From Pseudogemmobacter bohemicus (GTDB lineage: Bacteria > Pseudomonadota > Alphaproteobacteria > Rhodobacterales > Rhodobacteraceae): DNA of 64,000 bases. The notes below the pieces were generated by a model. It saw only the letters and a program-made list of their open reading frames with translations. It was not told the DNA's origin and did no database searches. Position 1 is the first letter of the stretch. Each line of letters starts with the position of its first letter. Made by a program: the position numbers and the translations under genes. The stretch is from positions 542,058 to 606,057 of the forward strand of contig NZ_QNHG01000004.1 in the NCBI RefSeq assembly GCF_003290025.1, read 5' to 3'. Below, piece after piece: positions 39,346-60,112 of the stretch.

Positions 39346-39361
39346 CGCTTATGCTCCCCGA

Positions 39362-39784
39362 TCAGACCGTATCCGGGATGACGGCGGTGGCCTCGATCTC
39401 GACCAGCCATTCGGGGCGGGCAAGCGCGGAGACAACAAGGCCGGTCGAGACCGGGAACACGCCCTTCAGATATTCTCCCATCACATTATAGACCGCCTCG
39501 CGGTAGCGGATGTCGATCAGATAGATCACCACGCGGCAGATATGGGTCAGGTCGGAACCCGATTCCTCCAGCAGCATTTTGATGTTTTCCATCGCCTTGC
39601 GCGCCTGGCCCGCCACATCGCCGATCGCGACGCTTTCGCGGGTGTCGAGATCCTGGCCGATCTGGCCGCGCACGAATACGGTCGCCCCACGCGCCACAAC
39701 GGCCTGGCAGAGGTCATTGTTCAGCTTTTGCTCGGGATAGGTTTCTTTGGTGTTGAAGGGGCGGATCCGCTTGTGGACGGGCAT
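39362..39784 (-). CDS. RidA family protein
   Basis: The 140-residue protein has the YjgF/RidA core, with GDVAGQARKAMENIKMLLEE, DLTHICRVVIYLIDI and the C-terminal ARPEWLVEIEATAVI (Glu kept; the usual Arg-rich pocket is partly changed). RidA hydrolyses reactive imines released by amine or amino-acid oxidation, which suits a neighbour of an amine dehydrogenase. AGGAG precedes the start. Confidence 0.85.
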   Translation of the reverse strand: MPVHKRIRPFNTKETYPEQKLNNDLCQAVVARGATVFVRGQIGQDLDTRESVAIGDVAGQARKAMENIKMLLEESGSDLTHICRVVIYLIDIRYREAVYNVMGEYLKGVFPVSTGLVVSALARPEWLVEIEATAVIPDTV

Positions 39785-39908
39785 GTCATGCTCCTGAAGG
39801 GTATAAAGGCCTCGGGGGATTTGTAACCGCTTCGCCCGGGGCTTGGGATGAGTATTTGTTGAGCCTGTGTTTCAGCGAAACCTATGCCGCGAGGATGGCC
39901 CGCCGCGT

Positions 39909-39960
39909 CATGCGGCAGGGACTGGGCACCGCGCCATGCGGCGGGGACTGGGCAGCGCCT
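39909..39960. repeat. 26-bp imperfect tandem repeat between RidA and GMC genes
   Basis: CATGCGGCAGGGACTGGGCA begins at 39909 and a close copy at 39935 (22 of 26 positions the same). It lies in the 175-bp gap just past the GMC stop codon. Confidence 0.6.
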
Positions 39961-41558: not shown

Positions 41559-43204
41559 CAGAATGTTCCATATGTGATTTTGCCGGCGCAGATGGTCAGC
41601 GCGACTGTGGCCGCGCGCGCATCTGTCGCAAGGTTTTCGAGGCTGCCATCAATCAACACCAGATCGGCGTCATAGCCCGGGGCCAGGCGCCCGGCCCGGG
41701 TCTCATTGAAATCGGCAAAGGCGCCGCCGGTCGTATAGGCGGCCAGGCATTCATCAAGACTGATGCGCTGGTCGGGCATGTCATCCGCCCAAAGGCGGCG
41801 CGTCAGGGCGCAATGGATCGCGTAGAGCGGCGACAGCGGCGAGACCGGCCAGTCGGTGCCGAAAGCCAGCGGCACATCGCGGGCCAGGATCATCGCCCAG
41901 GGGAAGGCGGTGGGCCAGCGGGCGCGGCCCATGATGGTGGTCGTCGGCTCCAGTGGCAGCCCGGCGGACCCCGGCGGATGCACCGGCTGCATCGAGGCGG
42001 TGATGCCAAGGGGTTTCAGCCGGTCAAGGTCATCGGGCGTGATGGTGTCGATATGTTCGATCCGGTGGCGGGCATCGCGCTTACCATTGGCAAGGGCCGC
42101 CGCCTCATAGCCGTCGATCACCGCGCGCACCGCGCCATCCCCCACCGCATGGGTGGTGATCTGAAGGCCCCTGCGGTCGGCCTCGACACAGATCCGGTTG
42201 AACAGATCCGGCGGGATCAGGGGGTCCGATCGGAAACCGGGCCGGTCGGGATAATCGGTGACGGTCAGCGCGGTCCAGGTGTCGAATACCCCGTCCATGA
42301 ACAGTTTGATGCGGCCAAAGGACAGCCAGCCGGGCACTTCCGCGCCGAAATCACCGATCCGGGCAACGCCTTCGACGCCGTCTTTCGCCTCAAGCATCAA
42401 AGGCAGGCTGACCCTGACCGGCATCTCACCCGCGAGCGCCAGATCGCGCATCAGCCCGGCCTGCCAGGCATTGCCGTCCATATTCACCGCGCGGGTGATG
42501 CCAAGGCTCGCGCAATAATCGCCCGCAGCCCGGATCACTGCGCGGTCATGGTCGCGCGCGCCGGCGGTCTCCTGCCCGGTCATGCGGTAATCCATCGCGT
42601 CACGGCCCTGCAGGGGCGAGAGCATCTTAACCCTGTTCATCGCCGCAAACTCGCGCAATTCACCACTGGCGAGACCATCCGCCCCCATCACCACCTCAGA
42701 CCCGGGGCCAGGATCGGCGCCATGGAGGATCCCGGCCAGTTCCAGCGCGCTTGTATTGGCCCAGGCACAATGGAGATCGGTCGCGATCAGGCAAAGCGGG
42801 CGATCCGGGATGATGCGGTCAAGGATGTGGCGGTCGGGGCGCGTCCCCTCGCCAAAGATCACATAATTCACCGCATAGCCGAACAGGATGCCGTCGCCGG
42901 GTTGCGTGGCGGCGAAATCCGTCAGCGCCGCACGGACCGGATCAAAGCCGAACAGCGCGCCCATATTCAGCATCGAAAGTGCTGCGCCGCCCATCATCAG
43001 ATGCAGATGACTCTCGATAAAGCCGGGCATCAGCGCGCGCCCTCCGGCGTCGATCACCCGGGTCTCCGCCCCGATATGGGTGCGGATCGCCGCATCATCG
43101 CCGGTTGCAAGGATGCGCCCCGCCGCCACCGCAATCGCAGTGGAGCCGGGGGCGGCGAAAAGCGGGCGCATATGTGCGTTCAGGATCACCAGATCGGCGG
43201 ACAT
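41558..43204 (-). CDS. Amidohydrolase, YtcJ-like (amidohydrolase 3 family)
   Basis: The 548-residue protein shows ALMPGFIESHLHLMMGG (metal HxH), carboxylated-Lys region, TTHAVGDGAVRAVIDGYE, HRIEHIDTITPDDLDRL and FGTDWPVSPLSPLYAI. Such enzymes hydrolyse cyclic or acyl C-N bonds. GGAGGGGAAG precedes the start. In the histamine hypothesis it is a candidate for imidazolone ring opening, but this is inference. Confidence 0.85.
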   Translation of the reverse strand: MSADLVILNAHMRPLFAAPGSTAIAVAAGRILATGDDAAIRTHIGAETRVIDAGGRALMPGFIESHLHLMMGGAALSMLNMGALFGFDPVRAALTDFAATQPGDGILFGYAVNYVIFGEGTRPDRHILDRIIPDRPLCLIATDLHCAWANTSALELAGILHGADPGPGSEVVMGADGLASGELREFAAMNRVKMLSPLQGRDAMDYRMTGQETAGARDHDRAVIRAAGDYCASLGITRAVNMDGNAWQAGLMRDLALAGEMPVRVSLPLMLEAKDGVEGVARIGDFGAEVPGWLSFGRIKLFMDGVFDTWTALTVTDYPDRPGFRSDPLIPPDLFNRICVEADRRGLQITTHAVGDGAVRAVIDGYEAAALANGKRDARHRIEHIDTITPDDLDRLKPLGITASMQPVHPPGSAGLPLEPTTTIMGRARWPTAFPWAMILARDVPLAFGTDWPVSPLSPLYAIHCALTRRLWADDMPDQRISLDECLAAYTTGGAFADFNETRAGRLAPGYDADLVLIDGSLENLATDARAATVALTICAGKITYGTF

Positions 43205-43229
43205 CTTCCCCTCCGGCCAAAACGGGAAA

Positions 43230-43253
43230 GGGGCCGGGATCGCTCCCGGCCCC
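43230..43253 (-). terminator. Stem-loop after the PotD-like gene
   Basis: GGGGCCGGGA (43230-43239) and TCCCGGCCCC (43244-43253) form a perfect 10-bp stem with a 4-nt loop; on the minus strand TTTCCCGTTTT follows. It probably attenuates transcription between the importer and the enzymes downstream. Confidence 0.7.
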
Positions 43254-43269
43254 GGTCAGGCAAGGCGGC

Positions 43270-44298
43270 TTATTGCAGCAGCTGGGTCCAGACCCGGTTC
43301 ACCAGATCCTGAGCCGCAGGCGAGCAGGTGCGCGAGAATTCAATCGGCACTTCGATGAACAGCTCCGGCGCGTTTTCCGGCGTGTAGATGATATCCTCGG
43401 CATTGACCTTCATCGGCGAGGAATAGGCGTAGTAATTCATCTGCGCGGTGGCATTTTCCGGACGCGACATGAACTCGATGAACTTCACCGCATTCTCCTG
43501 GTTTGGCGCGCCTTTCGGGATCACCATGGAATCGATCCAGCCCACCAGCCCCTCTTTCGGGAAGGCAAAGGCAAAGGGCGCCCCGCCCTTGCGGGCTTTC
43601 AGAACCTCACCCTGCCACCAGAAATGCGACAGCACCTCACCCGAGCCCAGACGGCTGGCGATATTGTCCGAGGAATAGGCGGCAACTGCGGGCTTTTGCG
43701 CCATCAGAAGATCCAGCACGCGCTTCATCTCATCGGGGTCTTCCGAACAGAAAGGCACGCCAAGATAAAGCTGCGCCGCGCCGACCACCTCATCGGGATA
43801 AGACAGCATGGCGATCTTGCCAAAGAGCTCTCCCTCGGGCTCGAAGAACACTTTCATCGAGTCGGTCGGGCCTTTGTAGAGATCGGAATTGATCGCGAAA
43901 CCGGCCGTGCCATAGGCGATCGGGATCGAATATTCCTGGGTCTCATCCCACCACTGATTGCGCCATTTTTCTTCGATATTGTTGAAGGCCTCGAGCTTGT
44001 TTGCCCCGTAATTCTCGATCAGCCCCTCATCGATCATCACACGCAGGAAATGCTGCGAGGGGGTCGAGAGGTCATAGCCCGAAGACCCCGCCTGCAGCTT
44101 GGTCAACAGATCCTCGTTCGAGGTATAGCTGTCGACATTGACCTTGACATCGTACTCTTTCGAAAACGTCGCGATCAGTTCGGGATTGATGGAATCCGCC
44201 CAGACATAAAGGTTCAGATTGCCCTCAGCCTGAGCGGCGGTGCCAGTGGCGGTGGCGGTGATCAGCGCAAGGGCCGATGCGGAAAGCAGGGTTTTCAT
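43270..44298 (-). CDS. Polyamine/amine ABC transporter substrate-binding protein (PotD-like)
   Basis: ATG 44298 starts a signal peptide (MKTLLSASALALITATATG, cleavage after AQA near 24), giving 342 residues. The mature protein opens NLNLYVWADSINPELIATF and has the PotD/PotF-type GYDLSTPSQHFLRVMI and FAFPKEGLVGWIDSMVIPKG segments. It binds a cationic amine or similar ligand in the periplasm. It is the fourth transporter gene of the amine operon. Confidence 0.88.
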   Translation of the reverse strand: MKTLLSASALALITATATGTAAQAEGNLNLYVWADSINPELIATFSKEYDVKVNVDSYTSNEDLLTKLQAGSSGYDLSTPSQHFLRVMIDEGLIENYGANKLEAFNNIEEKWRNQWWDETQEYSIPIAYGTAGFAINSDLYKGPTDSMKVFFEPEGELFGKIAMLSYPDEVVGAAQLYLGVPFCSEDPDEMKRVLDLLMAQKPAVAAYSSDNIASRLGSGEVLSHFWWQGEVLKARKGGAPFAFAFPKEGLVGWIDSMVIPKGAPNQENAVKFIEFMSRPENATAQMNYYAYSSPMKVNAEDIIYTPENAPELFIEVPIEFSRTCSPAAQDLVNRVWTQLLQ

Positions 44299-44329
44299 AG
44301 TCACATCCTCTGTTGGTTTCTTTGGTTTT

Positions 44330-45127
44330 TCAGGGTTTTGTGCCGCGCCGCGCGACCAGAAGTGCTGCGGTGGCAAGGATCAGCGAGGCCAGGATCATCA
44401 GCGTGCCGATGGCGTTCAGCTCGGGCGTGGTGCCGGACCGGATCAGCGAGAAGATATAGACCGGCAATGTGGTGGTGCCGCCCGAGGCCAGCATGTTCGA
44501 GGTGATGAAGTCATCCATCGAGATCAGGAAGGCGAGCATCGCGCCGGAGAACACGCCCGGGAAGATCAGCGGCAGCGTCACCCGGCGGAAGGTGGTCCAG
44601 CGGCCGGCATAGAGATCGGCGCTGGCCTCTTCGAAATCGAGGCTCATGCCCTGCAGCCGCGCCCGGATCGGCAGGAAGGCAAAGGGCGTGCAAAAGGCGG
44701 AATGGGCAAGGATCAGCTTCAGGAGCCCGTTTTGCAGCCCGACCAGCGAGAAGAGGATCAGGCTCGCCACTGCCAGCACGATCTCGGGCAGTAAAAGCGG
44801 CAGGTTCACAACCGTCTCGGACAGGCGCCGAAACCGCACATTCTTGCCCCGGATGATCGCCAGCGCCGCCATCAGCGCCACGCTCGTCGCCACCGCCGTC
44901 GCGATCAGCGCCACCGTGACCGAAGTTTTCAGCGCATTCATCAGCGCCTGGTTCTTCAGCGCCGAAGCATACCAGTCGAGGGAAAATCCGGTCCAGACCC
45001 CGGCGATGCGGTTCGCGTTGAAGGAATAGACCACCACCACCATCAGCGGCAGATAGAGCCAGACGAAGAATACCAGCGTCAGCCAGCCAAAGCCCGGATA
45101 ACGTTTCACATCATGGCTACGGCTCAT
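44330..45127 (-). CDS. PotC-like ABC transporter permease
   Basis: The 265-residue inner-membrane protein has six hydrophobic segments and an EAA loop (FEEASADLYAGRWTTFRRVTLPLIFPG). It is coupled to the preceding permease by ATGA overlap and precedes PotD by 31 bp. Confidence 0.9.
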   Translation of the reverse strand: MSRSHDVKRYPGFGWLTLVFFVWLYLPLMVVVVYSFNANRIAGVWTGFSLDWYASALKNQALMNALKTSVTVALIATAVATSVALMAALAIIRGKNVRFRRLSETVVNLPLLLPEIVLAVASLILFSLVGLQNGLLKLILAHSAFCTPFAFLPIRARLQGMSLDFEEASADLYAGRWTTFRRVTLPLIFPGVFSGAMLAFLISMDDFITSNMLASGGTTTLPVYIFSLIRSGTTPELNAIGTLMILASLILATAALLVARRGTKP

Positions 45128-46017
45128 GCGCGTGCCTCCATCCCGGCGGTCCGGCGTGCGGCACGCAGCGCGGTGACGATCAGGAACAGCATCACCAGCC
45201 CCATCAGCACCATGGCAATCGCGGCACCAAACGGCCAGTTGCGCCCGCCGCCGAATTGCAGCTGAATGAGCGAGCCCATCATCATCTGCTTGCCGCCGCC
45301 CATCAGCACAGGCTCCAGCACCGCGCCCAAAGCGGGAACGAAGACGAGAATGGCGCCCGAGACGATCCCCGGCGCGGTCAGCGGCAGGATCACCCGGCGG
45401 AAGGTGGTGAAACGGTTTCCATGCAGGTCATGCGAGGCCTCGATCAGCGTCAGATCCAGCTTTTCGATCGAGGCATAGATCGGCAGCACCATCAGCGGCA
45501 TGCAGGTATAGACCATTGCCACCAGTGTCGCGCCATCGTTGAACATAAAGCTCGTCCCCGGCGCGAGGCCGAAAGTCTCCAGAAACCGTGGCAGGGGGCC
45601 GTCTTTGCCGAGGATGATCATCCAGGCATAGACCCTGAGGATCATCGAGACCCAGAAGGGCAGCGTCACCAGATAGACCAGGATCGCGCGCATCCCCGGC
45701 GTCTGGCGCGAGATATACCAGGCCACCGGCAGCGCGAAAATCAGGCAAAGCGCCGTCGTGGCACCCGCCAGCAGGAAGGTGCGGCCAATGATGATCAGAT
45801 ATTGCGGGGTGAATTCCAGTTCCCCCGACCAGCCCTCGTTGAAGAGGATCTGGGCATAGCCCGCCGGGTTGAAATCCCAGGTGAAACCACCATGCGAGCC
45901 GCGCGTCGCGACCGAAACGGCGGCGATGATCAGGATCGGCAGGATCAGCGCGAACCCCATCAGCGCCCAGGCCGGCAACAGTCCCCAGAAGGGCAGATTG
46001 TTCGCAAGCCGCCTCAT
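45124..46017 (-). CDS. PotB-like ABC transporter permease
   Basis: The 297-residue protein has six hydrophobic segments and the EAA loop LIEASHDLHGNRFTTFRRVILPLTAPG. It is coupled by 4-bp overlaps to the ATPase and PotC genes and forms the translocation channel with PotC. Confidence 0.9.
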   Translation of the reverse strand: MRRLANNLPFWGLLPAWALMGFALILPILIIAAVSVATRGSHGGFTWDFNPAGYAQILFNEGWSGELEFTPQYLIIIGRTFLLAGATTALCLIFALPVAWYISRQTPGMRAILVYLVTLPFWVSMILRVYAWMIILGKDGPLPRFLETFGLAPGTSFMFNDGATLVAMVYTCMPLMVLPIYASIEKLDLTLIEASHDLHGNRFTTFRRVILPLTAPGIVSGAILVFVPALGAVLEPVLMGGGKQMMMGSLIQLQFGGGRNWPFGAAIAMVLMGLVMLFLIVTALRAARRTAGMEARA

Positions 46018-47099
46018 GATGCCAGCACCCGCGCGGATCCCGGCAGGAAACCGATGGTGACATCCGCCCCCGTCGCCACCAGATCGCCCTGGCGCGACGC
46101 ATTGCGGCGCGAGGCGCGTAAGGTCACCCCTCCGGTCTCCAGCGTATAATGGGTGAAGCCGCCCATGTAATTCTGGTTCACGACACGCGCGGCCAGCGTG
46201 ATGCCTCCGGCGGCCTGATCACCGAGATTGATCTTTTCCGGCCGGATCGACAGCGTCGCGCGGCCCTTTTGCGCCGCGCCGGTCGCGGGCACCCCGAAGG
46301 TGCCAAGGGGCGTGCGGATCGTGGCCTGACCCTCACGCGAGTCCAGCACCTCGACATCGAGGAAATTGGTCTCGCCCACGAAATCCGCGACGAAACGGTT
46401 CACGGGTTCTTCGTAGATCTGCGCCGGGGTGCCGATCTGCTGCACCTCACCCGCGCCCAGGACCGCGATGCGGTCCGACATGTCGAGCGCCTCTTCCTGG
46501 TCATGGGTGACGAAGACAAAAGTGATGCCGGTATCGCGCTGCAGATTGCGCAATTCATCGCGCATCGCCTGGCGCAGCTTCAGATCCAGCGCCGAAAGCG
46601 GCTCATCCAGCAGCAGGATCTCCGGCTCGGGCGCCAGCGCGCGGGCCAGCGCCACCCGCTGCCGCTGCCCGCCCGAAAGCTGGCCGGGCTTGCGGGTGGC
46701 CATTGCCGACATATGCACGCGCTCCAGCATCTCGCCGGTGCGGGCGCGGATCTTTGCCCGCTCCCAGCCAAGGTTTTCAAGGCCGTAAGCGACATTCTGT
46801 TCCAGCGTCATATGCGGAAACAGCGCGTAGGACTGGAAGACCGTATTCACGCGGCGCTTATGCGGCGGGATCTGCGTCACCTCGCGCCCATGCAAGAGGA
46901 TCGAGCCCTGATCGGGGGACTCGAACCCCGCCAGCATCCGCAAAAGCGTGGTCTTGCCGCAGCCCGAAGGCCCCAGCATGGTGAAAAACTCATTCTCGCC
47001 AATGTCGAAGCTGACCGATTTCAGCGCCTGATAGGTGCCGAAATGTTTGGAAACGCTTTTGACCTCGACGGCCTTATCCCTGTCCATGGCCATCCTCAC
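46014..47099 (-). CDS. PotA-like ABC transporter ATP-binding protein
   Basis: The GTG at 47099 overlaps the dehydrogenase stop (GTGA); ATG 47093 or 47087 are alternatives. The 361-residue ATPase has [46 protein letters not shown] and a TOBE tail. Translational coupling to the amine dehydrogenase links uptake to catabolism. Confidence 0.9.
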   Translation of the reverse strand: MRMAMDRDKAVEVKSVSKHFGTYQALKSVSFDIGENEFFTMLGPSGCGKTTLLRMLAGFESPDQGSILLHGREVTQIPPHKRRVNTVFQSYALFPHMTLEQNVAYGLENLGWERAKIRARTGEMLERVHMSAMATRKPGQLSGGQRQRVALARALAPEPEILLLDEPLSALDLKLRQAMRDELRNLQRDTGITFVFVTHDQEEALDMSDRIAVLGAGEVQQIGTPAQIYEEPVNRFVADFVGETNFLDVEVLDSREGQATIRTPLGTFGVPATGAAQKGRATLSIRPEKINLGDQAAGGITLAARVVNQNYMGGFTHYTLETGGVTLRASRRNASRQGDLVATGADVTIGFLPGSARVLAS

Positions 47100-49177
47100 A
47101 GCGGTTCAAGTTCGGTGACTTCGCGGCGGAACGGCAGCGCGTCGCCGATATCGGGCATGTCCAGTTCGCGCGCATAGCGGTGCCCGGCATAGGTGGCCCA
47201 GGCGATGGGCGCAGGGGCTGCGGCATCACCGATCAGTTTGACGGAACGGATACCGGCATCGGCCCAGTCTGCCTCTCTCGCGACCAGATCATTGTAAAGT
47301 GCATCATCGCCAAGGCGCGAGGCGACCATCACCACGGCATCCGCCTCGATCTGCTGGCGGCGGTCGGTATAGGTGCAATTCACCTCAACCGACGCGCCAC
47401 GCACCGCCGTCATGCCGGTGTTCAGACGGATATCGACGCCCAGCTCCGCCAGCCGCAGATGGATCGCGCCCTGCTCCAGCGTGTTTCTGGTCCAGTCCGA
47501 GACATAGGCCGAGGGCGTCACCAGGGTCACCGTCGCGCCCGCCTTCGCCATCACCTCGGCCATGACGCCGCCCATGTAATAATGGTCATCATCATAGACC
47601 ACGACGGTCTTGCCGCTCAGGTCCTGGCGGTGTTTCCCGGCCATCACATCATCGGGCGTCCAGAGGGCCATGGCACCGTCGATCTCCATCGGCACCACAT
47701 GCTGACGCGCCACGCCATCGCGGCGCCAATGCGCACCCGTGGCGATACAGACATTCTGGAAGCCGAATTCCAGGATCTCTTCGGCGCCAAGGCGGCTGTC
47801 GAAATAGGTCTCGACATTGGGGCGCTGGCTGATCTGGTATTGCCGGTAATCAACGACGCGCCCCCAGGCGCTCAGCCCCGGCAGCAGGCGTTCACGCGCC
47901 ACGCGGCCACCGAGAATCGTCGTCGCCTCGGCCAGCGCGACGTCATAGCCGCGCAAGGACAGCGCGCGCGCGGCCTCAAGGCCCGCAGGGCCGGAGCCGA
48001 CGATCAGCACATTCTGGCTGTCGCCTTTGGCGTTCATCTTCTCGGGATGCCAGCCCTTCCTCCACTCCTCCATAAAGGTCGGGTTCTGGGTACAGCGGCT
48101 GATCGACATCGTCATATCGCCGGTGATGCAGATATTGCAGCCAATGCATTCGCGGATGTCTTCCACCCGCCCCTCGTCAATCTTTTTCGGAATGAACGGG
48201 TCGGCGATCGAGGGCCGCGCGCAGCCGATGAAATCGAGCACCCCCTGACGGATCATCCGCGCCATCACATCGGGGGAGGTGAAACGGCCCACGCCGACAA
48301 CCGGCTTCGACGACAGCTCGCGAATGCCGGAAACCAGCACCTCCTGCGCGGCTTCCTCTTTGAACCGCGACGGGCCCGAGCAATCCTCCCAGGCGCCCTG
48401 GGCCAGATCCCAGAGATCGGGCAGATCGGCATTCATCTCGACAAACTCACGCACCTCGGCATTGGAAAAGCCGAGATTGCCGATATTCTCGTCAAGGCTG
48501 ACCCGCATGGTGATCGCCATCGTATCGCCCACCGCATCGCGGATATCGGCGACGACCTCGCGGGCAAACCGCGAGCGGTTCTCCAGGCTGCCGCCATATT
48601 CGTCGGTCCGGTGATTGGTGGCGCGCGACAGGAAATGCTGGAAGATCCCGAAACCATGCGCGCCGTACAGGCAGATCAGGTCAAACCCGGCGATTTTCGA
48701 GCGTTTCGCGGCATTGACGAACCAGCGCCGCAGGTCGGTGATATCGGATTTCGTCATTGCCCGCGCCGAGACCGGGTCATTGGTGAAGGTCCGGATCGGC
48801 AGCGCCGAGGGTGCCAGCGGCACCTCTTTCGTGTAGAAATTCGGGCCGTTGATGCCGGAATAGGCCAGCTGGATACCGGCCAGCGCGCCATGGGTCTTCA
48901 TCGCATCCGACATGCGGCGCAGCCCCGGAATATCCTTGTCCTCCCAGAGCCTCAGCTCGATGAAAGGGGTGATTTCCGAGGTATGGTGCATCTCGGTCTG
49001 CTCGGTGAAGATGACACCCCAGCCGCCTTCCGACTTGATCCCGCGCATCGCGGCGGCGGCCGAGGGATCGCGGTAGCCGCCCCCGTTGCAATGCGGCACC
49101 TGGTAGAAACGGTTCTTCGCCACCAGCGGGCCAATGGCCAGCGGCTCGAACAGGATGTCATATTTCGGGTCGCGCAT
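47096..49177 (-). CDS. Trimethylamine/histamine dehydrogenase family iron-sulfur flavoprotein
   Basis: The 693-residue protein follows TMADH along its length: N-terminal OYE barrel with FYQVPHC (Cys30, the 6-S-cysteinyl-FMN attachment), YGAH (171-174), [4Fe-4S] ligands Cys344, Cys347, Cys350 and Cys362, and two Rossmann-type domains (VLIVGSGPAGLEAARAL onward). The substrate cage has Gln60, Trp263 and Asp354 where TMADH has Tyr60, Trp264 and Trp355; I recall Gln/Trp/Asp from histamine dehydrogenase. It oxidatively deaminates an amine and passes electrons to an electron-transfer flavoprotein, not encoded here. Confidence 0.85.
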   Translation of the reverse strand: MRDPKYDILFEPLAIGPLVAKNRFYQVPHCNGGGYRDPSAAAAMRGIKSEGGWGVIFTEQTEMHHTSEITPFIELRLWEDKDIPGLRRMSDAMKTHGALAGIQLAYSGINGPNFYTKEVPLAPSALPIRTFTNDPVSARAMTKSDITDLRRWFVNAAKRSKIAGFDLICLYGAHGFGIFQHFLSRATNHRTDEYGGSLENRSRFAREVVADIRDAVGDTMAITMRVSLDENIGNLGFSNAEVREFVEMNADLPDLWDLAQGAWEDCSGPSRFKEEAAQEVLVSGIRELSSKPVVGVGRFTSPDVMARMIRQGVLDFIGCARPSIADPFIPKKIDEGRVEDIRECIGCNICITGDMTMSISRCTQNPTFMEEWRKGWHPEKMNAKGDSQNVLIVGSGPAGLEAARALSLRGYDVALAEATTILGGRVARERLLPGLSAWGRVVDYRQYQISQRPNVETYFDSRLGAEEILEFGFQNVCIATGAHWRRDGVARQHVVPMEIDGAMALWTPDDVMAGKHRQDLSGKTVVVYDDDHYYMGGVMAEVMAKAGATVTLVTPSAYVSDWTRNTLEQGAIHLRLAELGVDIRLNTGMTAVRGASVEVNCTYTDRRQQIEADAVVMVASRLGDDALYNDLVAREADWADAGIRSVKLIGDAAAPAPIAWATYAGHRYARELDMPDIGDALPFRREVTELEPL

Positions 49178-49274
49178 CTGGGGACGTCCTTGATGCCTGA
49201 AGGGGATAAAAGCGGGATCTGTCCCATAGGATTGCCCGCGCAGGGTCTGGTAAATGATGGGTTTCGGAAGCCTT

Positions 49275-49293
49275 GGTTAGACTGTGCCTAATC
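49275..49293. promoter_or_regulatory. LysR-type box upstream of the amine dehydrogenase
   Basis: GGTTAGACTGTGCCTAATC contains TTAG-N7-CTAA, which includes a T-N11-A LysR core. Its reverse complement matches GATTAGGGAGGGTCTAAGC at 54949-54967 upstream of the flavin monooxygenase. It lies about 107 bp before the dehydrogenase start. Confidence 0.6.
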
Positions 49294-49449
49294 AATGTCG
49301 CGAAGACGCCAGGCCGAGACGCGGACCGGAGGACCGGACCGCGAACAAAGTGTAAAACATTGTAATAACTAACATTTCAACCGGGCGCCATTAAAGGCAT
49401 CGCCCGGCACCCGCTACCCCGCCGCAAGGCAGGGCAATCACCGGTTTCT

Positions 49450-49472
49450 GGCCGGGGCAGACCGCCCCGGCC
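49450..49472 (-). terminator. GC stem after the aldehyde dehydrogenase
   Basis: GGCCGGGGC (49450-49458) and GCCCCGGCC (49464-49472) pair perfectly around 5 nt. No U run follows, so termination is uncertain. Confidence 0.4.
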
Positions 49473-49498
49473 TGTGCCTCAGGAAGAGGCGGATTTGC

Positions 49499-50989
49499 TC
49501 AGTATTTGATCCAGATTGTTTTCAGCGCCGAGTATTTGTCAAAGCTGTGCAGCGACAGATCGCGGCCGAATCCCGATTGTTTCATCCCGCCAAAGGGCGT
49601 CATCGCCGACAGCGCATCCACCGTATTCACCGATACCGTGCCGGCATGAAGGCGGTCGGATACCGACAGAGCCCGGCTCAGATCCCGCGTCCAGACCGAA
49701 GCGGCAAGGCCGTATTCGCTGGCATTGGCGATCTGCAGCGCCTCCTCCTCGCTGTCGAAAGGCGTCACCGCCAGCACCGGGCCAAAGACCTCCTCGCGGG
49801 CAATCCGCGCCGTGGGCGCCACATCGGCAAAGATGGTGGCACCGATATAACAGTCTGATCCGTCGCGGGTCTCGCGCGTGCCTCCATGAACCAGCCGCGC
49901 CTCGGCTTTGCCGATCCCGATATACTGCGCCACCTTGTCGGCATGCGCCTTTTCGACCAGCGGCCCCATGCGGGTGGCCAGATCCATCGGGTCTCCCAAA
50001 GGCCAGGCGGCGGTAGCCGCGATCAGCTTTTCGGTGAACTCCTCCTGCACCGCGCGCGCGATGAGGATGCGGGAATTGGCGGAGCAGACCTCGCCCGAGT
50101 TGAAGAGGATGCCGAAAGCCGCCATCTGCGCCGCCTGGTCAAGATCGGCATCGGCGAAGATCAGGTTCGGCGATTTGCCTCCGGTCTCAAGCCAGACCTG
50201 CTTCATATTGCTTTGGGCAGCATAATTCATAAACCGCTTGCCGGTCGCAGTCGAGCCGGTGAAGACCAGCGCATCGACATCCGGGTGCAGCCCAAGCGCC
50301 TGGCCCGCCTCGGCCCCGTAACCCGGCACCACGTTCAACACGCCATCGGGCAGCCCGGCCCGGGAGGCCAGCTCCGCCAGAAACAAGGCCGACAGGGGCG
50401 ATTGCTCGGCCGGTTTCAGCACCACCGAATTCCCCATCGCCAGCGCCGGCGCCAGTTTCCAGGTCGCCATGTCGAGCGGGAAGTTCCACGGCACCACCGC
50501 GCCCACCACCCCCAGAGGGGCGCGCCGGATCAGCGCCAGGTCGCGGCCCCCGGTCGGCGCAACCTCGTCATAAAGCTTGTCGATGGCCTCGGCATGCCAC
50601 TGAAAGAAATGCGCCGAGCCCGGCGCGTCGATGGTCGAGCTGTCGCCGATGGGTTTCCCCATATCCAGCGTCTCCAGCAGCGCAAGCTCAGCGATATTCT
50701 CGCGGATAAGGCCCGCCAGTTTCAGCAGCACCTCTTTGCGGGCCGAGGGCGTCTGGCGCGACCAGCGCCCGTCCTCAAAGGCCCGCCGCGCCGCCGCGAC
50801 TGCCAGGTCGATATCCGCCGCCATGCCGCGCGACACTTCGGTCAGAACCGCGCCATTCGCCGGGTTCACCGTGGCAAAACACCCGCCCCCCACCGCATCG
50901 CGAAACGCCCCGTCGATATAAAGCTGGTTGCGAAAGCGCAGGCTGCCTGCGCGGGCGCGCCATTCGGCGGAGGTGGCGGGAAGGGTCAT
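49499..50989 (-). CDS. Aldehyde dehydrogenase (PuuC/betaine-aldehyde type)
   Basis: The 496-residue NAD(P) enzyme has VVPWNFPLDMATWKLAPALA, FTGSTATGKRFM, LETGGKSPNLIF (catalytic Glu) and NSGEVCSANSR (catalytic Cys). It resembles PuuC, which oxidises aminoaldehydes. AGGAG precedes the start, 13 bp after the LysR stop. It would oxidise the aldehyde made by the amine dehydrogenase encoded downstream. Confidence 0.9.
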   Translation of the reverse strand: MTLPATSAEWRARAGSLRFRNQLYIDGAFRDAVGGGCFATVNPANGAVLTEVSRGMAADIDLAVAAARRAFEDGRWSRQTPSARKEVLLKLAGLIRENIAELALLETLDMGKPIGDSSTIDAPGSAHFFQWHAEAIDKLYDEVAPTGGRDLALIRRAPLGVVGAVVPWNFPLDMATWKLAPALAMGNSVVLKPAEQSPLSALFLAELASRAGLPDGVLNVVPGYGAEAGQALGLHPDVDALVFTGSTATGKRFMNYAAQSNMKQVWLETGGKSPNLIFADADLDQAAQMAAFGILFNSGEVCSANSRILIARAVQEEFTEKLIAATAAWPLGDPMDLATRMGPLVEKAHADKVAQYIGIGKAEARLVHGGTRETRDGSDCYIGATIFADVAPTARIAREEVFGPVLAVTPFDSEEEALQIANASEYGLAASVWTRDLSRALSVSDRLHAGTVSVNTVDALSAMTPFGGMKQSGFGRDLSLHSFDKYSALKTIWIKY

Positions 50990-51002
50990 GGTCTTGCTCC
51001 TG

Positions 51003-51962
51003 TCAGGTCTCGGGTGGCGTCTCGGGAGGCATCGAGAGGCGGCGGATCCCGGGATGCACCCCGTCCTTCAGCTTCTCGCTGCAAAATTCGATGAAGCGGC
51101 GCACGGTCAGCGATTTCGCAGCCTCGCGCATGGTGATGATCCCCAGCCGCATCGGGCGCAGATCGCCGCTGATCGGGATGTCGATCAGCCGGCTGCCATC
51201 CAGCGCCAGTTCAATCGCGGGGCGGATATTGGCGATGGAATAGCCGAAGCGATTGGCAACCAGCGCGCGCATCACCCAGATATCGCGGGTGCGTTCGACG
51301 ATATTCGGGCTGCATCCGGCATCGCGGAACAGTGAGATGAAATAGCTGGCGCTATAGGGCAGATCGAGGAGGATCATCGGGTGGCTGGCCAGATCCGCCA
51401 TGCTGACACTGTCATTGCCCGCCAGCGGATGACCCTCGTGCAAGACGGCATGGGGCGGCAGGGCGCCCAGCTCATGGAATTCCATATCCGATGGAATATC
51501 AAGATCATAACTGAGCGCGAGATCGAAACGTGCCAGCCGCAGCCCCTCGATAATACCCGCGTGATCCAGCTCGTTTTGCGCGAACTCCACTTCCGGGTAG
51601 CTTTCACAGAAGGTGCGGCGCAGCGCCGGGATCACAACCTGGGCAAAGGTCATCAGGCAGGCGACATGCAAAGGGCCGCGCACCTGACCCGTCACCTCAT
51701 TCGAAAGCGCATTCAGCTGCGCGGCCTCGGTCAGGATGCGTCGCGCCTGCTCGACAAAGCTGCGCCCGGCCTGGGTCAGCGACAACCCATGCGCGTGGCG
51801 GCGCACAAACAGCGTGATGCGGAATTCGCGCTCCAGCTGCGAGATCGCCGCCGAAACCGAAGGGGCCGAGACATTCACCCGCTCGGCTGCTTCGGTGACC
51901 GAGCCGAAATCCCCCACCGCCACCAGATATTCCAGCTGCCTGAGCGTGAACCTGAGCGCCAT
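51003..51962 (-). CDS. LysR-family regulator of the amine block
   Basis: From ATG 51962 the protein has 319 residues with the helix-turn-helix MALRFTLRQLEYLVAVGDF and VNVSAPSVSAAISQLEREF, then a substrate-binding-like effector domain. It is located between the two transcription units that carry the matched TTAG-N7-CTAA boxes, so it is the natural candidate to bind them; that is inference. It is transcribed with, not against, its neighbours. Confidence 0.88.
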   Translation of the reverse strand: MALRFTLRQLEYLVAVGDFGSVTEAAERVNVSAPSVSAAISQLEREFRITLFVRRHAHGLSLTQAGRSFVEQARRILTEAAQLNALSNEVTGQVRGPLHVACLMTFAQVVIPALRRTFCESYPEVEFAQNELDHAGIIEGLRLARFDLALSYDLDIPSDMEFHELGALPPHAVLHEGHPLAGNDSVSMADLASHPMILLDLPYSASYFISLFRDAGCSPNIVERTRDIWVMRALVANRFGYSIANIRPAIELALDGSRLIDIPISGDLRPMRLGIITMREAAKSLTVRRFIEFCSEKLKDGVHPGIRRLSMPPETPPET

Positions 51963-52122
51963 GCCTGCCCCTTTCCGATCCCCTGTTGCCGCCCGATCAT
52001 AGACCAGACCGCCCGCCGGCTGCGAGACTTGCGCGGGGCCGGCGACAGAATTCTGGGCAGGTACAGCGGCGGTGATCATCGCGCTGGCCTCTTGCGGCAG
52101 GAAATGGGCATCGGGGCACCCC

Positions 52123-53538
<1,416 letters not shown>

Positions 53539-53603
53539 GGCTCCGGCCGGCAGAGGGATCCCCCCGGGGGGCTGCCCCCGGGTGGCGGTTCGCGAAATGG
53601 GGG

Positions 53604-54836
53604 TCAGGCCGGCGTCACCCGGGCCGCAGCGATATGGCCGGCAAGGCTGTCGGCATCATGCCAGACCCCCCAGATGAAGGAGGACCCGCGCCGGGACAGC
53701 CAGGGCAGGCCGAGGAAATACAGCCCCGGCACCGGCGAGACACCGTTTTTATGCTGCGGGCGGCCGCGCTCGTCGAAGATATCGGCCTTGATCCAGCTGA
53801 AATCCAGCGCATAGCCGGTGGCCCAGAGGATGGTGGTGATCCCCTCTTTCGCCAGATCCAGCGCCAGCACCGGATCGGTCAGGCAGCCAGGGTCCGCCCC
53901 GATCAGATGGGCACCGGGTTCAGGCGGCAGGTCGAGGCCATGCTTTGCCACATGGGCATCGGCCTGTTGCAGAAGGCCCAGGTAATTCGCATCGCCCATG
54001 GCGACATTTTTCGCCAGATCGGCGGCGAAATGCATCACGCCATTCTCAAAGCGCGCGGTCATGCCGACCAGCCCCATCCCCGCGCCCGCGAGGCGGCGGA
54101 AATCGACGGTCTGGCCGCCATGGGCACCGCTGACCGCGATGGTCACATGTTCGGTGCCGGGCGCCGGGGTGGTGGTGTCCCAGATGCCAAGCGCACCCAG
54201 CCACCAGACGAAATCCTTGCCGCGGTAGCGCCTCGGCGGGCGGTCATGCGGCCCGACCGAAAGCCAGACCTTGCGGCCGGCGCGGCGCAGCTCATCCGCG
54301 ATCTGCACGCCGGAAGATCCCGCGCCCACCACCAGAACGCCGCCTTCGGGCAGCTGGCCGGGGGTCTTGTAGCCATGCGAATGCAGCTGATGAATGCCGG
54401 AGGAGGCCGGCACCACCGGCGGGATGATCGGCTTCTGAAAGGGGCCGGTGGCGGCGACGACGTTCTTCGCCTCGATCACGCCCTGCGAGGTCTCGACCCG
54501 GAAGCCGCCCGGCTGCGGCGTAAGCGACGTCACCGTCACGCCGCAGCGCACCGGGGATTTGTTCTGCGCCACGCAATCCTCAAAATATTGCGCCACCCGG
54601 TCGTGATGGGCAAAGGCATCCGGGTCCAGATCGTCGAAATTCAGCGAGGGAAAACGGTCATGCCAGGCCGGGCCATTCGCCACCAGGGAATCCCACCGTG
54701 CCGTGCGCCAGCTTTCCGCGATGCGGTTCTTTTCCACCACCAGATGCGACAGGCCGCGCCGGCCCAGATGCTCGCTCATCGCGACACCGGCCTGGCCGGC
54801 CCCGATGACGAGAGTATCGACTTTTTCGACGGACAT
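53604..54836 (-). CDS. FAD/NAD(P)-dependent flavin monooxygenase (YUC/FMO-like)
   Basis: The 410-residue protein has an FAD loop VIGAGQAGVAMSEHL (10-24), the FMO-type motif near GPFQKP, a second Rossmann loop VVGAGSSGVQIADELRRAG and the ATGYALDF segment. Such enzymes hydroxylate nitrogenous or aromatic compounds, so it could act on imidazoleacetate in the proposed pathway. A LysR-type box lies about 115 bp upstream. Confidence 0.85.
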   Translation of the reverse strand: MSVEKVDTLVIGAGQAGVAMSEHLGRRGLSHLVVEKNRIAESWRTARWDSLVANGPAWHDRFPSLNFDDLDPDAFAHHDRVAQYFEDCVAQNKSPVRCGVTVTSLTPQPGGFRVETSQGVIEAKNVVAATGPFQKPIIPPVVPASSGIHQLHSHGYKTPGQLPEGGVLVVGAGSSGVQIADELRRAGRKVWLSVGPHDRPPRRYRGKDFVWWLGALGIWDTTTPAPGTEHVTIAVSGAHGGQTVDFRRLAGAGMGLVGMTARFENGVMHFAADLAKNVAMGDANYLGLLQQADAHVAKHGLDLPPEPGAHLIGADPGCLTDPVLALDLAKEGITTILWATGYALDFSWIKADIFDERGRPQHKNGVSPVPGLYFLGLPWLSRRGSSFIWGVWHDADSLAGHIAAARVTPA

Positions 54837-54948
54837 TACGGCTTCCTCAAGCGGATTGGGTTCAGTGTGACCGCCGGAACGGCCGGTCGCCTGAGGAAAT
54901 GATGCCGCTGAAAAACCTGATTTGCCTATGAGCCTTTCTTGCAGCCCT

Positions 54949-54967
54949 GATTAGGGAGGGTCTAAGC
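54949..54967. promoter_or_regulatory. LysR-type box upstream of the flavin monooxygenase
   Basis: GATTAGGGAGGGTCTAAGC has TTAG (54951-54954), a 7-bp spacer and CTAA (54962-54965), matching the box at 49275-49293 in arms, spacing and flanks. Confidence 0.6.
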
Positions 54968-55053
54968 CGCAGCCCGGCGCCGAAGCAGCAAACGCGCTGC
55001 CCGCAGAACGGGCAATGCTTACGGCGAAGGCCGGCAGCCTTGCCATCACCCCC

Positions 55054-56004
55054 TCAGCCGCAGGGACGTTTCCAGTCGAAAAAGTCAGGGCCGGCGCGGC
55101 CCAGCAGATCGCGCGCAAGGCTTGCGCCAAGCGCGGCTGCGTCCGGGGCGGGGCATGTCCCCCCGACCGTCAGACGCCCGGCCCCATTGGTGCGCAGGAT
55201 CTCGCCCCGGAAATGGATCACGCCATCGGTCAGCCGCGCAAGGCCGGCAATCGGCGTCTGGCAATTCCCTTCCAGCGTGGCAAGAAAGGTCCTCTCGCAG
55301 GCCATTTCCCGCTCGCAAACCGGGTCATGCAGCGGCATCAGCAGATCGCGCACCCAGAGGTCGCCCTTGCGGCGCTGGATCGCCAGCGCGGCCTGACCGA
55401 CAGCGGGCAGCATCTCTTCGGTCTCGATGATCTTCCAGCCGTGATCCTTCATCCCCAGCCGGTTCAGCCCGGCCAGCGCAAGGAAGGTGCAATCGGCCAG
55501 CCCCTGTTCCAGTTTCGCCAGCCGCGACTGCACATTGCCACGGAAATTCACGATGCGCAGATCGGGGCGGGCGAACAGCGTCTGCGCGCCGCGCCGCATG
55601 CTCGACGTGCCGACCGTCGCGCCCGGAGGCAGATCGTCAAGGCTGCGATATTTATGGGAAACCAGCACGTCGCGCGGGTCTTCGCGGGGCAGGAAAATAT
55701 CCGAGACGAGGCCATCGGGCTCGGCCACGGCCATATCCTTGACGCAATGCACGGCAAGGTCGATGCGACCATCCAGCAGCGCCTCTTCCAGCTCTTTGGT
55801 GAACAGCCCCTTGCCACCGATCTCTTTCAGAAGCTTGTCAAGCACCCGGTCGGCCGTGGTCTTGATCACCACGATCTCGAAAGCCTCGACCGGCAGATTA
55901 TGCCTTGCGCGAAGCCAGTCGCGGGTCTGGAACGCCTGCACCAGCGCCAGCGGCGATCCGCGCGTACCGATACGAAGAGGAGTGCTGGCGTCAGGCTGTC
56001 TCAT
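55054..56004 (-). CDS. hemC: Porphobilinogen deaminase
   Basis: From ATG 56004 the 316-residue protein has RIGTRGSPLALVQA, EIGGKGLFTKELEEALLDG, GTSSMRRGAQ, FRGNVQSRLAKLE and the dipyrromethane-cofactor Cys in LEGNCQTPIAG. It assembles hydroxymethylbilane for heme, siroheme and related tetrapyrroles. The usually strict VHSxKDxP motif reads VHCVKDMA, so it may be a diverged or second copy. No other heme gene adjoins. Confidence 0.85.
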   Translation of the reverse strand: MRQPDASTPLRIGTRGSPLALVQAFQTRDWLRARHNLPVEAFEIVVIKTTADRVLDKLLKEIGGKGLFTKELEEALLDGRIDLAVHCVKDMAVAEPDGLVSDIFLPREDPRDVLVSHKYRSLDDLPPGATVGTSSMRRGAQTLFARPDLRIVNFRGNVQSRLAKLEQGLADCTFLALAGLNRLGMKDHGWKIIETEEMLPAVGQAALAIQRRKGDLWVRDLLMPLHDPVCEREMACERTFLATLEGNCQTPIAGLARLTDGVIHFRGEILRTNGAGRLTVGGTCPAPDAAALGASLARDLLGRAGPDFFDWKRPCG

Positions 56005-56120
56005 GGCGCTTCCGATAGGCTGGCAAAGCTGCGCTGGCAACTGGAATCATTCTCAAACGGACGGATTGCCGCGACGCGATTTGTCGCAGCGAAGGGTCCG
56101 TCAGGCCCCGGCTGTCGGGA

Positions 56121-58118: not shown

Positions 58119-58441
58119 CCGGCGCTCCTTTTCGGGCAGTCTCCATCACAGAGCCGGGCCAGGGATCCTCTGCAAGCGATTTTCACCGCCCATCCGAGGA
58201 TGACACGAAAAAATTCCCCTTCTGCGATGCAGCATTTCCCCCCTTCGATGCGACGACAGCGCAGATCCTTCCCCCGGTACGGCCAGATCCGGTTGATCGA
58301 GGCGCCGGATCCGCTGCCCCTGACGGGCGCATTTTTGTATATTGCGGAAGAAACTGTCTGCGTTTTGGTTGAATTTGGAATGGCTTGTTCCGGGCATCGG
58401 GTTTTATCACGACGGGACTGGTCGGGATTGAGGAAAGCCGG
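58119..58441. other. Intergenic region upstream of the sulfone genes
   Basis: This 323-bp stretch has no gene I can support. It is less GC-rich in its second half and ends in a possible sigma-54 promoter (58381-58396). Confidence 0.5.
58381..58396 (+). promoter_or_regulatory. Possible sigma-54 promoter
   Basis: TGGCTTGTTCCGGGCA has the GG-N10-GC spacing of sigma-54 promoters (TGGC at -24, GGGC at -12), 46 bp before the FMN reductase start. Sulfone genes of pseudomonads are sigma-54 controlled. The -12 box deviates from TTGC. Confidence 0.3.
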
Positions 58442-59002
58442 ATGTCTGAACTTCATATCGTGGGCCTTGCCGGCAATATCACCGCGCCGTCGAAGACGCG
58501 GGCGCTTGTCGGGCAGGCGCTTGGGCTGGCGGGGGATGCGCTTCATGCCCGCACCACCCTCTTTGACATCGCCGATTTCGGCGAGGATCTTGGCCGGGCG
58601 CGCCGGGCCGGCGATCTGGCTCCGGGGGCGCAGCGCAATCTCGAGACGCTTTTGCGCGCCGATGCGCTGATTGTGGCGACGCCGGTTTACAAGGGCTCTT
58701 ACCCCGGGCTTTTCAAACATCTGATCGACCTGATCGACCCTGCTGCGCTGATCCGCAAACCGGTGCTGATCGCGGCCACCGGCGGCGGTGAGAAACACGC
58801 GCTGGCGGTCGAACACCAGCTGCGCCCGCTCTTCGCCTTTTTCGAGGCCCGGCTCCTGTCGACCGCCGTGCATGTCTCGGATCGCGACTTCTCGGAAGGG
58901 CGGCTGGGCGACGGCCCCGCGCTCGACCGGCTGGCCCGCGCCATCGAGGAATTCACCACGATTTTCCCCGGCGCCGCCCGCATCCGCGCCGCCGCCGAAT
59001 AG
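58442..59002 (+). CDS. NADH-dependent FMN reductase (MsuE/SsuE-like)
   Basis: ATG 58442 gives 186 residues in a flavodoxin-like fold: LHIVGLAGNITAPSKTRAL (phosphate loop) and ATPVYKGSYPGLFKHLIDLID. It supplies FMNH2 to a two-component monooxygenase, here SfnG, whose gene starts 18 bp downstream. Confidence 0.85.
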   Translation: MSELHIVGLAGNITAPSKTRALVGQALGLAGDALHARTTLFDIADFGEDLGRARRAGDLAPGAQRNLETLLRADALIVATPVYKGSYPGLFKHLIDLIDPAALIRKPVLIAATGGGEKHALAVEHQLRPLFAFFEARLLSTAVHVSDRDFSEGRLGDGPALDRLARAIEEFTTIFPGAARIRAAAE

Positions 59003-59020
59003 ATATTCAGGAGCCCCCCC

Positions 59021-60112
59021 ATGACCGCCGATCCCGTCAGATTCGCCTATTGGGTGCCCAATGTTTCGGGCGGCCTCGTGATCTCGACTGTCGAACAGCG
59101 CACCAGCTGGACCCCCGAATACAACCGCAAACTGGCGCAGATCGCCGAGGCCGCCGGCTTTGACTACGCGCTGAGCCAGATCCGCTTTACCGCCGGCTAT
59201 GGTGCTGACAATCAACATGAATCCGTCTCGTTCAGCCAGGATCTTCTGGCCCATACCCAGCGTCTGAAGGTGATTGCGGCGCTGCTGCCAGGCCCCTGGA
59301 ACCCGGCGCTGGCGGCCAAGCAGATCGCCACCATCAACCATCTTTCCGGCGGGCGGATCGCGGTCAATGTGGTCTCGGGCTGGTTTCGGGGCGAGTTCGC
59401 CGCGATCGGCGAGCACTGGCTGGACCATGATGAGCGCTACCGCAGATCCGAGGAATTCATCCGGGCGCTGCGCGGCATCTGGGCCGAGGAAAGCTTTACC
59501 TTCCGCGGCGATTTCTACCGCTTCAACGACTATAGCCTCAAGCCCAAACCTCTTGATCCGCAACCGGAAATCTTCCAGGGTGGCTCGTCGCGCGCGGCGC
59601 GGGACATGGCGGCGCGCGTCTCGGACTGGTATTTCACCAACGGCAATACCCCCGAGGGGCTCCGTGCCCAGGTCGATGACATCCGCGAGAAAGCCGCCGC
59701 AAACGGGCACAAGGTGAAGGTCGGCATCAACGCCTTCGCCATCATCCGCGAGACCGAGGCCGAGGCCCGGGCGGTCTTGCAAGAGATCATCGCGAAGGCG
59801 AACCCCGAAGCCGTGGCCGGCTTTGCCGGCCAGGTGAAAAACGCCGGAAAGGCCAGCCCCGAAGGCGAGGGAAACTGGGCGAAATCCTCCTTCGAGGACC
59901 TGGTGCAGTATAATGACGGCTTCCGGTCAAACCTGATCGGAACCCCCCGCCAGGTGGCCGAACGCATCGTCGGCCTCAAACAGGCAGGCGCCGATCTCGT
60001 GCTGCTGGGCTTCCTCCATTTCCAGGAAGAGGTCGAATATTTCGGGAAACACGTCATCCCAATCGTCCGCGAAATCGAAACAAAACAAAAACAAAACATC
60101 GCCGCCGAATAA
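59021..60112 (+). CDS. sfnG: FMNH2-dependent dimethylsulfone monooxygenase
   Basis: The 363-residue protein is a flavin luciferase-like monooxygenase with SfnG-type sequence from end to end: FAYWVPNVSGGLVIS, QIRFTAGYGADNQHESVSF, AVNVVSGWFRGEF and HDERYRRSEEFIRAL. It oxidises dimethylsulfone to methanesulfinate and formaldehyde for sulfur supply. The adjacent FMN reductase completes the system. AGGAG precedes the start. Confidence 0.9.
   Translation: MTADPVRFAYWVPNVSGGLVISTVEQRTSWTPEYNRKLAQIAEAAGFDYALSQIRFTAGYGADNQHESVSFSQDLLAHTQRLKVIAALLPGPWNPALAAKQIATINHLSGGRIAVNVVSGWFRGEFAAIGEHWLDHDERYRRSEEFIRALRGIWAEESFTFRGDFYRFNDYSLKPKPLDPQPEIFQGGSSRAARDMAARVSDWYFTNGNTPEGLRAQVDDIREKAAANGHKVKVGINAFAIIRETEAEARAVLQEIIAKANPEAVAGFAGQVKNAGKASPEGEGNWAKSSFEDLVQYNDGFRSNLIGTPRQVAERIVGLKQAGADLVLLGFLHFQEEVEYFGKHVIPIVREIETKQKQNIAAE

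Follow-up and report, generated by a model that had tools for sequence, protein, structure and literature searches.

A 64,000-nucleotide stretch of the genome of the alphaproteobacterium Pseudogemmobacter bohemicus (RefSeq assembly GCF_003290025.1, contig NZ_QNHG01000004.1, positions 542,058 to 606,057; hereafter the window, whose own coordinates are used below) was found to carry 14 co-oriented genes on the minus strand at positions 37326 to 54836, as seen from the list of open reading frames (ORFs) and family searches of the window. Read from the 54836 end, the array encodes an FAD monooxygenase (FMO), an aspartase, a LysR-type regulator, an aldehyde dehydrogenase (ALDH), a histamine dehydrogenase (HDH), the ABC importer PotABCD, an amidohydrolase, a GMC oxidoreductase, a RidA-fold protein, a DUF1028 protein, and an M20 deacylase. 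On the strength of sequence comparison and gene context, we consider it highly probable that these genes constitute a histamine-catabolic regulon, which would convert histamine to aspartate and thence to fumarate. The genes and two candidate operators, all on the minus strand, are as follows.

53604-54836, minus: HinF-like FMO (Pfam Pyr_redox_3), by homology a putative imidazoleacetate monooxygenase (EC 1.14.13.5 in the published account of HinF)
52123-53538, minus: HinI-like aspartate ammonia-lyase (NF008909, 721 bits; cut-off, 510)
51003-51962, minus: HinK-like LysR regulator (start at 51962 by homology, longest ORF from 52079; 36.7% identity to PDB 6m5f)
49499-50989, minus: HinD-like putative imidazoleacetaldehyde dehydrogenase (ALDH; PF00171; 61% identity to the hin-cluster ALDH of genome G576)
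47096-49177, minus: predicted HDH (6-S-Cys-FMN, 4Fe-4S, trimethylamine dehydrogenase [TMADH] family; 86.9% identity over 692 amino acids to 6de6)
46014-47099, minus: PotA ATPase of a polyamine-type ABC importer (TIGR01187, above cut-off)
45124-46017, minus: PotB permease (PF00528)
44330-45127, minus: PotC permease (PF00528)
43270-44298, minus: PotD-type binding protein (SBP_bac_8; inferred ATG start at 44298, listed ORF from 44376; NF007048, 158 bits, below the cut-off of 582)
41558-43204, minus: Amidohydro_3 enzyme, putative optional add-on (PF07969, 297 bits)
39960-41558, minus: GMC oxidoreductase, putative optional add-on with a proposed role in alcohol oxidation (PF00732/PF05199; 57% identity to the GMC oxidoreductase in the G576 hin cluster)
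39362-39784, minus: HinL-like RidA-fold protein (PF01042)
38671-39345, minus: HinH-like DUF1028 protein, predicted from its sequence to be an Ntn hydrolase with a Thr nucleophile
37326-38606, minus: HinG-like M20 deacylase, proposed N-formylaspartate deformylase (PF01546)
49277-49291, minus: candidate LysR-type operator TTAG-N7-CTAA before the HDH gene (center 107 bp upstream), proposed from site conservation
54951-54965, minus: candidate LysR-type operator TTAG-N7-CTAA before the monooxygenase gene (center 122 bp upstream), proposed from site conservation

Overlaps of 4 bp occur between the HDH and PotA, PotA and PotB, and PotB and PotC genes, and one of 1 bp between the amidohydrolase and GMC genes; the widest gap within the array, from ALDH to HDH, is 321 bp. 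An earlier, sequence-only reading of this DNA had placed a histamine-like amine island at 47096 to 54836. The genes it named (those for PotABCD, aldehyde dehydrogenase, monooxygenase, aspartase, amidohydrolase, RidA, and M20) are all present on the minus strand, and its interval has to be widened to 37326, taking in LysR, GMC oxidoreductase, and DUF1028 genes that it did not mention.

Identity of the first enzyme

The best solved-structure match of the dehydrogenase is the HDH of Rhizobium sp. 4-9 (6de6; bit score, 1413), ahead of the Nocardioides simplex HDH (3k30; bit score, 818) and TMADH (bit score, 527), with amino acid identities of 86.9%, 54.9%, and 40.7%, respectively. Position 60, a Tyr with a role in the aromatic cage of TMADH (structure 1djn), is Gln in the window enzyme. 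The active-site and tunnel residues of the Rhizobium enzyme are named in a protein-engineering paper, in the available text of which the vast majority of clones from the Tyr171, Phe176, Trp263, Asp265, and Asp354 libraries were inactive (PMC10180351). At 18 of the 19 active-site and tunnel positions compared, with equal numbering, the window enzyme has the residue of the Rhizobium HDH, the sole exception being position 262 (Ala rather than Thr). Gln60, Trp263, and Asp354, which the sequence-only reading had picked out as the cage of HDH, are where it placed them and are the same in 6de6. Together with Ile69, Phe72, Glu74, and Asn110, these residues are shared by the window enzyme and both characterized HDHs; the Nocardioides enzyme further differs at positions 176 and 265.

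In a tree of 105 rows, obtained by a quick search with SH-aLRT support and no bootstrap, an 11-row group (SH-aLRT, 100) contained the window enzyme, 6de6, and sequences from Shinella, Rhizobium, Xanthobacter, and a single Rhodobacteraceae isolate. Across 87 rows of the HDH clade, Gln60, Ile69, Phe72, Glu74, and Asn110 are kept (one row has an unreadable letter at position 60), and position 265 is variable (Asp in 79, Glu in 7, Ala in 1). Because identity, residues, and tree placement agree, the assignment is about as secure as sequence allows, and the enzyme very likely oxidizes histamine as an HDH. The comparison covered HDHs and TMADH, and of these the HDHs are the closer, as the sequence-only reading would have it; dimethylamine and dimethylglycine dehydrogenases, which it had also wished to see aligned, were not named among the 49 solved-structure matches, and no sequence of either was compared.

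The window HDH is closer to homologues from Shinella and Rhizobium (86 to 89%) and from the Rhodobacteraceae isolate (locus L010; 86%) than to any in a sample of 198 genomes of its own family (82% at best), a pattern suggesting that the island was transferred horizontally. HDH genes at 60% identity or more were also seen on 18 plasmid records. In two Xanthobacter loci (L011 and L012), a single hin cluster is flanked by two HDH-family genes with 55 to 56% and 85 to 86% identity to the window HDH.

Linkage of histamine dehydrogenase with hin-type genes

Both HDH and the hin pathway are already known. In the published work on the hin pathway (de la Torre 2018, as cited in PMC8231116 and PMC6467879, and followed here through the available portions of those two papers), histamine use by Pseudomonas putida U requires 11 proteins, HinABCDFLHGIJK, among which HinF is an FAD-monooxygenase (EC 1.14.13.5), HinL an enamine deaminase, HinH an amidase, HinG an enzyme of EC 3.5.1.8, and HinI an aspartase. 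In strain PAO1, hinF-L-H-G correspond to PA5393 to PA5390 and are contiguous by gene number; an earlier proposal of histamine genes, again from the portion available, concerned PA0218 to PA0221 (PMC2542419). The window genes match the published HinF, HinL, HinH, HinG, HinI, HinD, and HinK, a correspondence drawn from gene order, protein family, and published descriptions and not from the Hin sequences themselves.

The monooxygenase, RidA, DUF1028, and M20 proteins of the window are 61 to 64%, 62 to 64%, 51 to 55%, and 46 to 50% identical, respectively, to those of four-gene operons of the same order in genomes G255, G259, G477, and G576. All four genomes carry the RNA RsmY, above cut-off, which is typical of Pseudomonas. 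The G576 operon is adjoined by genes for a LysR regulator, an ALDH and a GMC oxidoreductase (61% and 57% identical to those of the window), and a class III aminotransferase, the last named by reading. In a sample of the phylum from which the window's own locus was excluded, RidA genes lie within 4.2 kb of HinF at 27 of 29 loci and DUF1028 genes at 25 of 29; the DUF1028 gene is a core member of the hin set. Annotated plasmids of Pantoea sp. At-9b and of Streptomyces sp. NBC_01471 show the four genes as neighbors, the Streptomyces M20 being known by annotation only, as the comparison with the window M20 did not list it. HinF-like genes at about 59% identity appear, from a listing, among plasmid matches of Klebsiella and Escherichia.

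The neighborhoods of HDH genes were surveyed in the best 80 of 577 confirmed stretches, 63 of which have full flanks, and compared with those of 20 control TMADH-family genes at 44 to 56% identity, drawn from 49 such rows. Identity thresholds for linkage, co-occurrence, and operator counts were chosen after the data had been seen. Near HDH in the full-flank loci we counted LysR in 56, FMO in 55, RidA in 54, DUF1028 in 53, M20 in 44, and ALDH in 36, and orthologous Pot genes in 16 to 17. At least one of FMO, RidA, DUF1028, and M20 is found in 59 of the 63 loci versus 2 of the 20 controls (L161, with M20, and L162, with RidA and DUF1028), and all four in 40 of the 63. A wider survey of gene families around HDH listed 12 that recur in at least 11 of the 63 loci. 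No extra enzyme was recognized among them when they were matched to window genes by eye; a few of the ORFs resemble antisense shadows or resisted naming, one cluster merges several families, and the greedy ORF choice undercounts.

Co-occurrence across the 198 family genomes points the same way. HDH (at least 65% identity) is present in 38, HinF in 68, and both in 37, and HinF is found in 31 of the 160 genomes without HDH (Fisher one-sided P = 3.6e-20, or 1.0e-19 when the genome of the window is left out, with relatedness not modeled). HinF-positive genomes numbered 69 before G144, with 39% identity to HinF, was dropped. The partial G182 and G036 were counted as HDH bearing, and G014 and G059 as not HDH bearing; G036, the sole HDH genome without HinF, holds an HDH fragment with an internal stop. 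Genomes with only a distant TMADH-family enzyme carry HinF no more often than the rest (6 of 22 versus 25 of 138; P = 0.38).

The island differs from the hin genes of P. putida U and PAO1 in several respects. HDH stands where the aminotransferase HinC is found in Pseudomonas, and PotABCD where HinA, an APC permease, is found; the aspartase and LysR genes lie in the same array, amidohydrolase and GMC genes are added, and hinF, contiguous with hinL-H-G in PAO1, is separated from them by other island genes. In cheese Brevibacterium, for which growth on histamine was demonstrated, the putative pathway contains homologues of HinF, HinL, HinH, HinG, HinI, and HinD as in the window, whereas entry was proposed, in the portion available, via a copper histamine oxidase or a HinC homologue rather than HDH (PMC6467879). 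The paper on the Rhizobium HDH concerns its use in assays, and an operon or gene cluster is unmentioned in its available text (PMC10180351). No published link between HDH and hin genes was found in a literature search, so the arrangement does seem undescribed, as the sequence-only reading had supposed; the downstream steps, by contrast, had already been assigned to HinF, HinL, HinH, HinG, and HinI in P. putida U and PAO1. The histamine-to-aspartate-to-fumarate route of that reading, with HDH at the head, is strongly supported by the 86.9% identity, the active-site residues, the tree placement, and the linkage to published hin genes.

A LysR regulator and its candidate operator

Alignment of the window with seven close relatives revealed a conserved dyad upstream of HDH. 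The motif, TTAG-N7-CTAA, conforms to the T-N11-A pattern typical of LysR boxes. It occurs twice in the window (versus 0.04 expected), at the two positions listed above, and five times in the whole 5.6-Mb genome, while the reversed pattern occurs 42 times. Two of the three genomic sites outside the island have the shape TTAGAA-N3-TTCTAA, which we take to be an iron box, and lie beside genes read from their ORFs as an Rrf2/IscR-like regulator and bacterioferritin; this shape was found in none of the 117 island sites of relatives.

The 80 HDH loci contain 129 sites in total, and 117 of these are found no more than 400 bp before an island-type gene: HDH (41), FMO (30), PotA (28), LysR (10), RidA (5), and M20 (3). 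Their distance from the start, with gene starts estimated from alignments, is 83 to 109 bp for 40 of the 41 HDH sites and 79 to 119 bp for 25 of the 28 PotA sites. For nine other dyads of the same form, 2 of 123 sites precede HDH or FMO, versus 71 of 129 for TTAG-N7-CTAA. An operator site is present in 52 of the 56 full-flank loci with LysR and in 1 of the 7 without it; the 20 controls contain two sites (L151 and L161), neither before a hin gene. Since the sites precede HDH, FMO, and PotA and track the presence of LysR, the LysR regulator appears to form one regulon with the two promoters of the window and, in relatives, with the Pot transporter. The sharing of the operator by PotA in relatives is also the best evidence that PotABCD serves histamine, in which case it probably stands in for the permease HinA.

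Unlike in the window, the motif was not found in the Pseudomonadaceae-like loci L138 to L141, and no published account of it was found in a literature search. The structure 6m5f is 79 to 87% identical to the LysR protein beside hin genes in L140, L141, and L145, and a HinK structure is mentioned in the available text of PMC8231116; from sequence, context, and this mention, 6m5f is probably HinK.

Proposed pathway and competing explanations

In the proposed pathway, histamine would be imported by PotABCD and oxidatively deaminated by HDH to imidazoleacetaldehyde, which the HinD-like ALDH would oxidize to imidazoleacetate and the HinF-like monooxygenase to imidazoloneacetate. HinH, HinL, and HinG would then open the ring and strip the formimino and formyl groups to yield aspartate; we propose that HinG cleaves the formyl amide, and we infer that HinH acts on the lactam and HinL on the C=N bond. 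The HinI aspartase would convert aspartate to fumarate. The HinK-like LysR protein, probably sensing imidazoleacetate like HinK, would activate the HinF and HDH promoters via TTAG-N7-CTAA, as site conservation suggests. In this scheme, HDH stands in for HinC as the putative entry to the pathway.

The candidates for the lower steps vary in how closely they fit. The FMO scores 349 bits with TIGR04046, below the cut-off of 498, and the two best solved-structure matches of the aspartase are aspartate ammonia-lyases. RidA binds its substrate through a conserved Arg. At position 113, where human RidA (1oni) has Arg, the 99 rows compared have Ser (89) or Cys (10), and the window's RidA-fold protein lacks the conserved residue of a 2-imino-acid deaminase. 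The DUF1028 protein combines the fold of an Ntn hydrolase with a nucleophile that is predicted to become N terminal after Met removal; the DUF1028 alignment covered the window protein and 36 of its 62 listed relatives. No published account of DUF1028 (HinH) as an Ntn hydrolase was found in the literature search, and a search aimed at DUF1028 returned none.

Several observations weigh against the proposed pathway. None of FMO, RidA, DUF1028, and M20 is near HDH in 4 of the 63 loci (L015, L016, L026, and L039), and since the loci are the best 80 of 577 stretches, the linkage is shown for close relatives. The aspartase is present in 2 of the 63 loci and, being so rare in relatives, may be a local addition; it also scores 669.3 bits with the aspA equivalog model TIGR00839, just below the cut-off of 681.2, while reaching that of the subfamily model NF008909. 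The ALDH reaches no NCBIfam cut-off among the best 25 of 44 families, and the M20 protein is above the cut-off for acetylornithine deacetylase. Among the 18 controls that lack hin genes, 11 likewise have PotABCD-like transporters in their flanks. Finally, the HinC-like aminotransferase of locus L171 has a relative at 51% identity elsewhere in the genome, though no close one within the window (29% at 62654 to 63985).

The dehydrogenase might instead act mainly on another amine, such as a methylated amine, agmatine, putrescine, or a nicotine intermediate, with its neighbors serving that pathway. The TMADH family does cover enzymes for other amines, many of its members are flanked by amine-type ABC transporters, and Pno of the nicotine pathway is 46 to 48% identical to HDHs according to the available portion of PMC5500553. 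We nevertheless regard this as quite unlikely for an enzyme with 86.9% identity to the Rhizobium HDH, the same cage residues, and linked genes that are those of imidazoleacetate breakdown. Of the controls, only the hin-linked L161 and L162 share Gln60, Ile69, Phe72, Glu74, and Asn110 with HDH; the other 18, without hin genes, differ, so that cage and hin linkage agree in 20 of 20. L161 (in G014) and L162 (in G059) contain HDH-like genes at 53 to 56% identity, in genomes without a HinF match at an E value of 1e-80, and perhaps represent a divergent or partial histamine route.

A second possibility accepts HDH and the hin genes and assigns ring opening and a further oxidation to the amidohydrolase and the GMC oxidoreductase, which lie in the same array; GMC homologues also recur in the hin clusters of other genomes, including G576 and G252. 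It is very unlikely, because the amidohydrolase and GMC genes are found in 12 and 8 of the 63 loci, respectively, versus 53 to 55 for HinF, HinL, and HinH and 44 for HinG, and neither is among the 11 required Hin proteins in the available text of PMC8231116. Close homologues of both (at least 54% for the amidohydrolase and 66% for the GMC oxidoreductase) are confined to 3 of the 198 genomes in the family sample (G000, G009, and G092), each of which also has HDH and HinF; weaker amidohydrolase relatives (39 to 48%) are common in the family. We therefore take the amidohydrolase as unnecessary for ring opening, for which HinH, HinL, and HinG are better candidates. The sequence-only reading had counted it as a plausible enzyme of the pathway, and this part of that reading does not hold. 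As a core ring-opening enzyme, Amidohydro_3 was rejected on its absence from 51 of the 63 full-flank HDH loci at 45% identity. The amidohydrolase and the GMC oxidoreductase appear to be optional members of an upper pathway, with histaminol or N-acylhistamine as guesses at their substrates. GMC genes, such as those of the window and at positions 4603 to 6261 of L171, recur in hin clusters of distant bacteria, and the available portions of the hin accounts give no role for a GMC enzyme.

A neutral collection of genes around an ArgE/RidA/DUF1028 housekeeping set, with HDH linked by accident, is hardly credible: the acetylornithine deacetylase score of the M20 protein speaks for it, but it is opposed by the co-occurrence statistics (Fisher test above, relatedness not modeled), by gene order conserved in distant bacteria, and by the shared operators.

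Returning to the histamine pathway, a wider version can be put forward only tentatively, and we think it somewhat less probable than its converse. In it, alphaproteobacteria would have a self-contained histamine regulon in which HDH displaced the aminotransferase, a polyamine-type importer was recruited, and both promoters came under a HinK-like LysR protein via TTAG-N7-CTAA; in some lineages PotABCD, the amidohydrolase, and the GMC oxidoreductase would form an upper branch for histamine conjugates or histaminol, and the imidazolone ring would be opened by HinH, acting as an Ntn amidase on small molecules. If so, the DUF1028 family would gain a defined reaction. The assignment of HDH to the pathway gives an enzyme of food-safety kits a likely physiological role and joins the literature on HDH enzymology to that on the Pseudomonas hin genes. 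The residue signature and the operator sequence together offer a means to recognize histamine users among alphaproteobacteria, and the division of work between HinH and HinL becomes directly testable.

The array is bordered by a porphobilinogen deaminase gene at 55054 to 56040 and, on the other side, by a plus-strand LysR gene at 36434 to 37333. Scans of 36000 to 55500 gave no excess of sigma-70 promoters (2 sites versus 3.1 in shuffles) or terminators (13 versus 11.8), and k-mers common to the window's own intergenic stretches were matches of chance length only. Elsewhere in the window, translations from the plus strand at 58385 to 60112 read as a short reductase-like gene of the flavodoxin fold and a monooxygenase-like gene of the LLM type (SsuD-like), and a class III aminotransferase-like gene lies beside a GntR-like gene, both named by reading, on the minus strand at 62651 to 63979.

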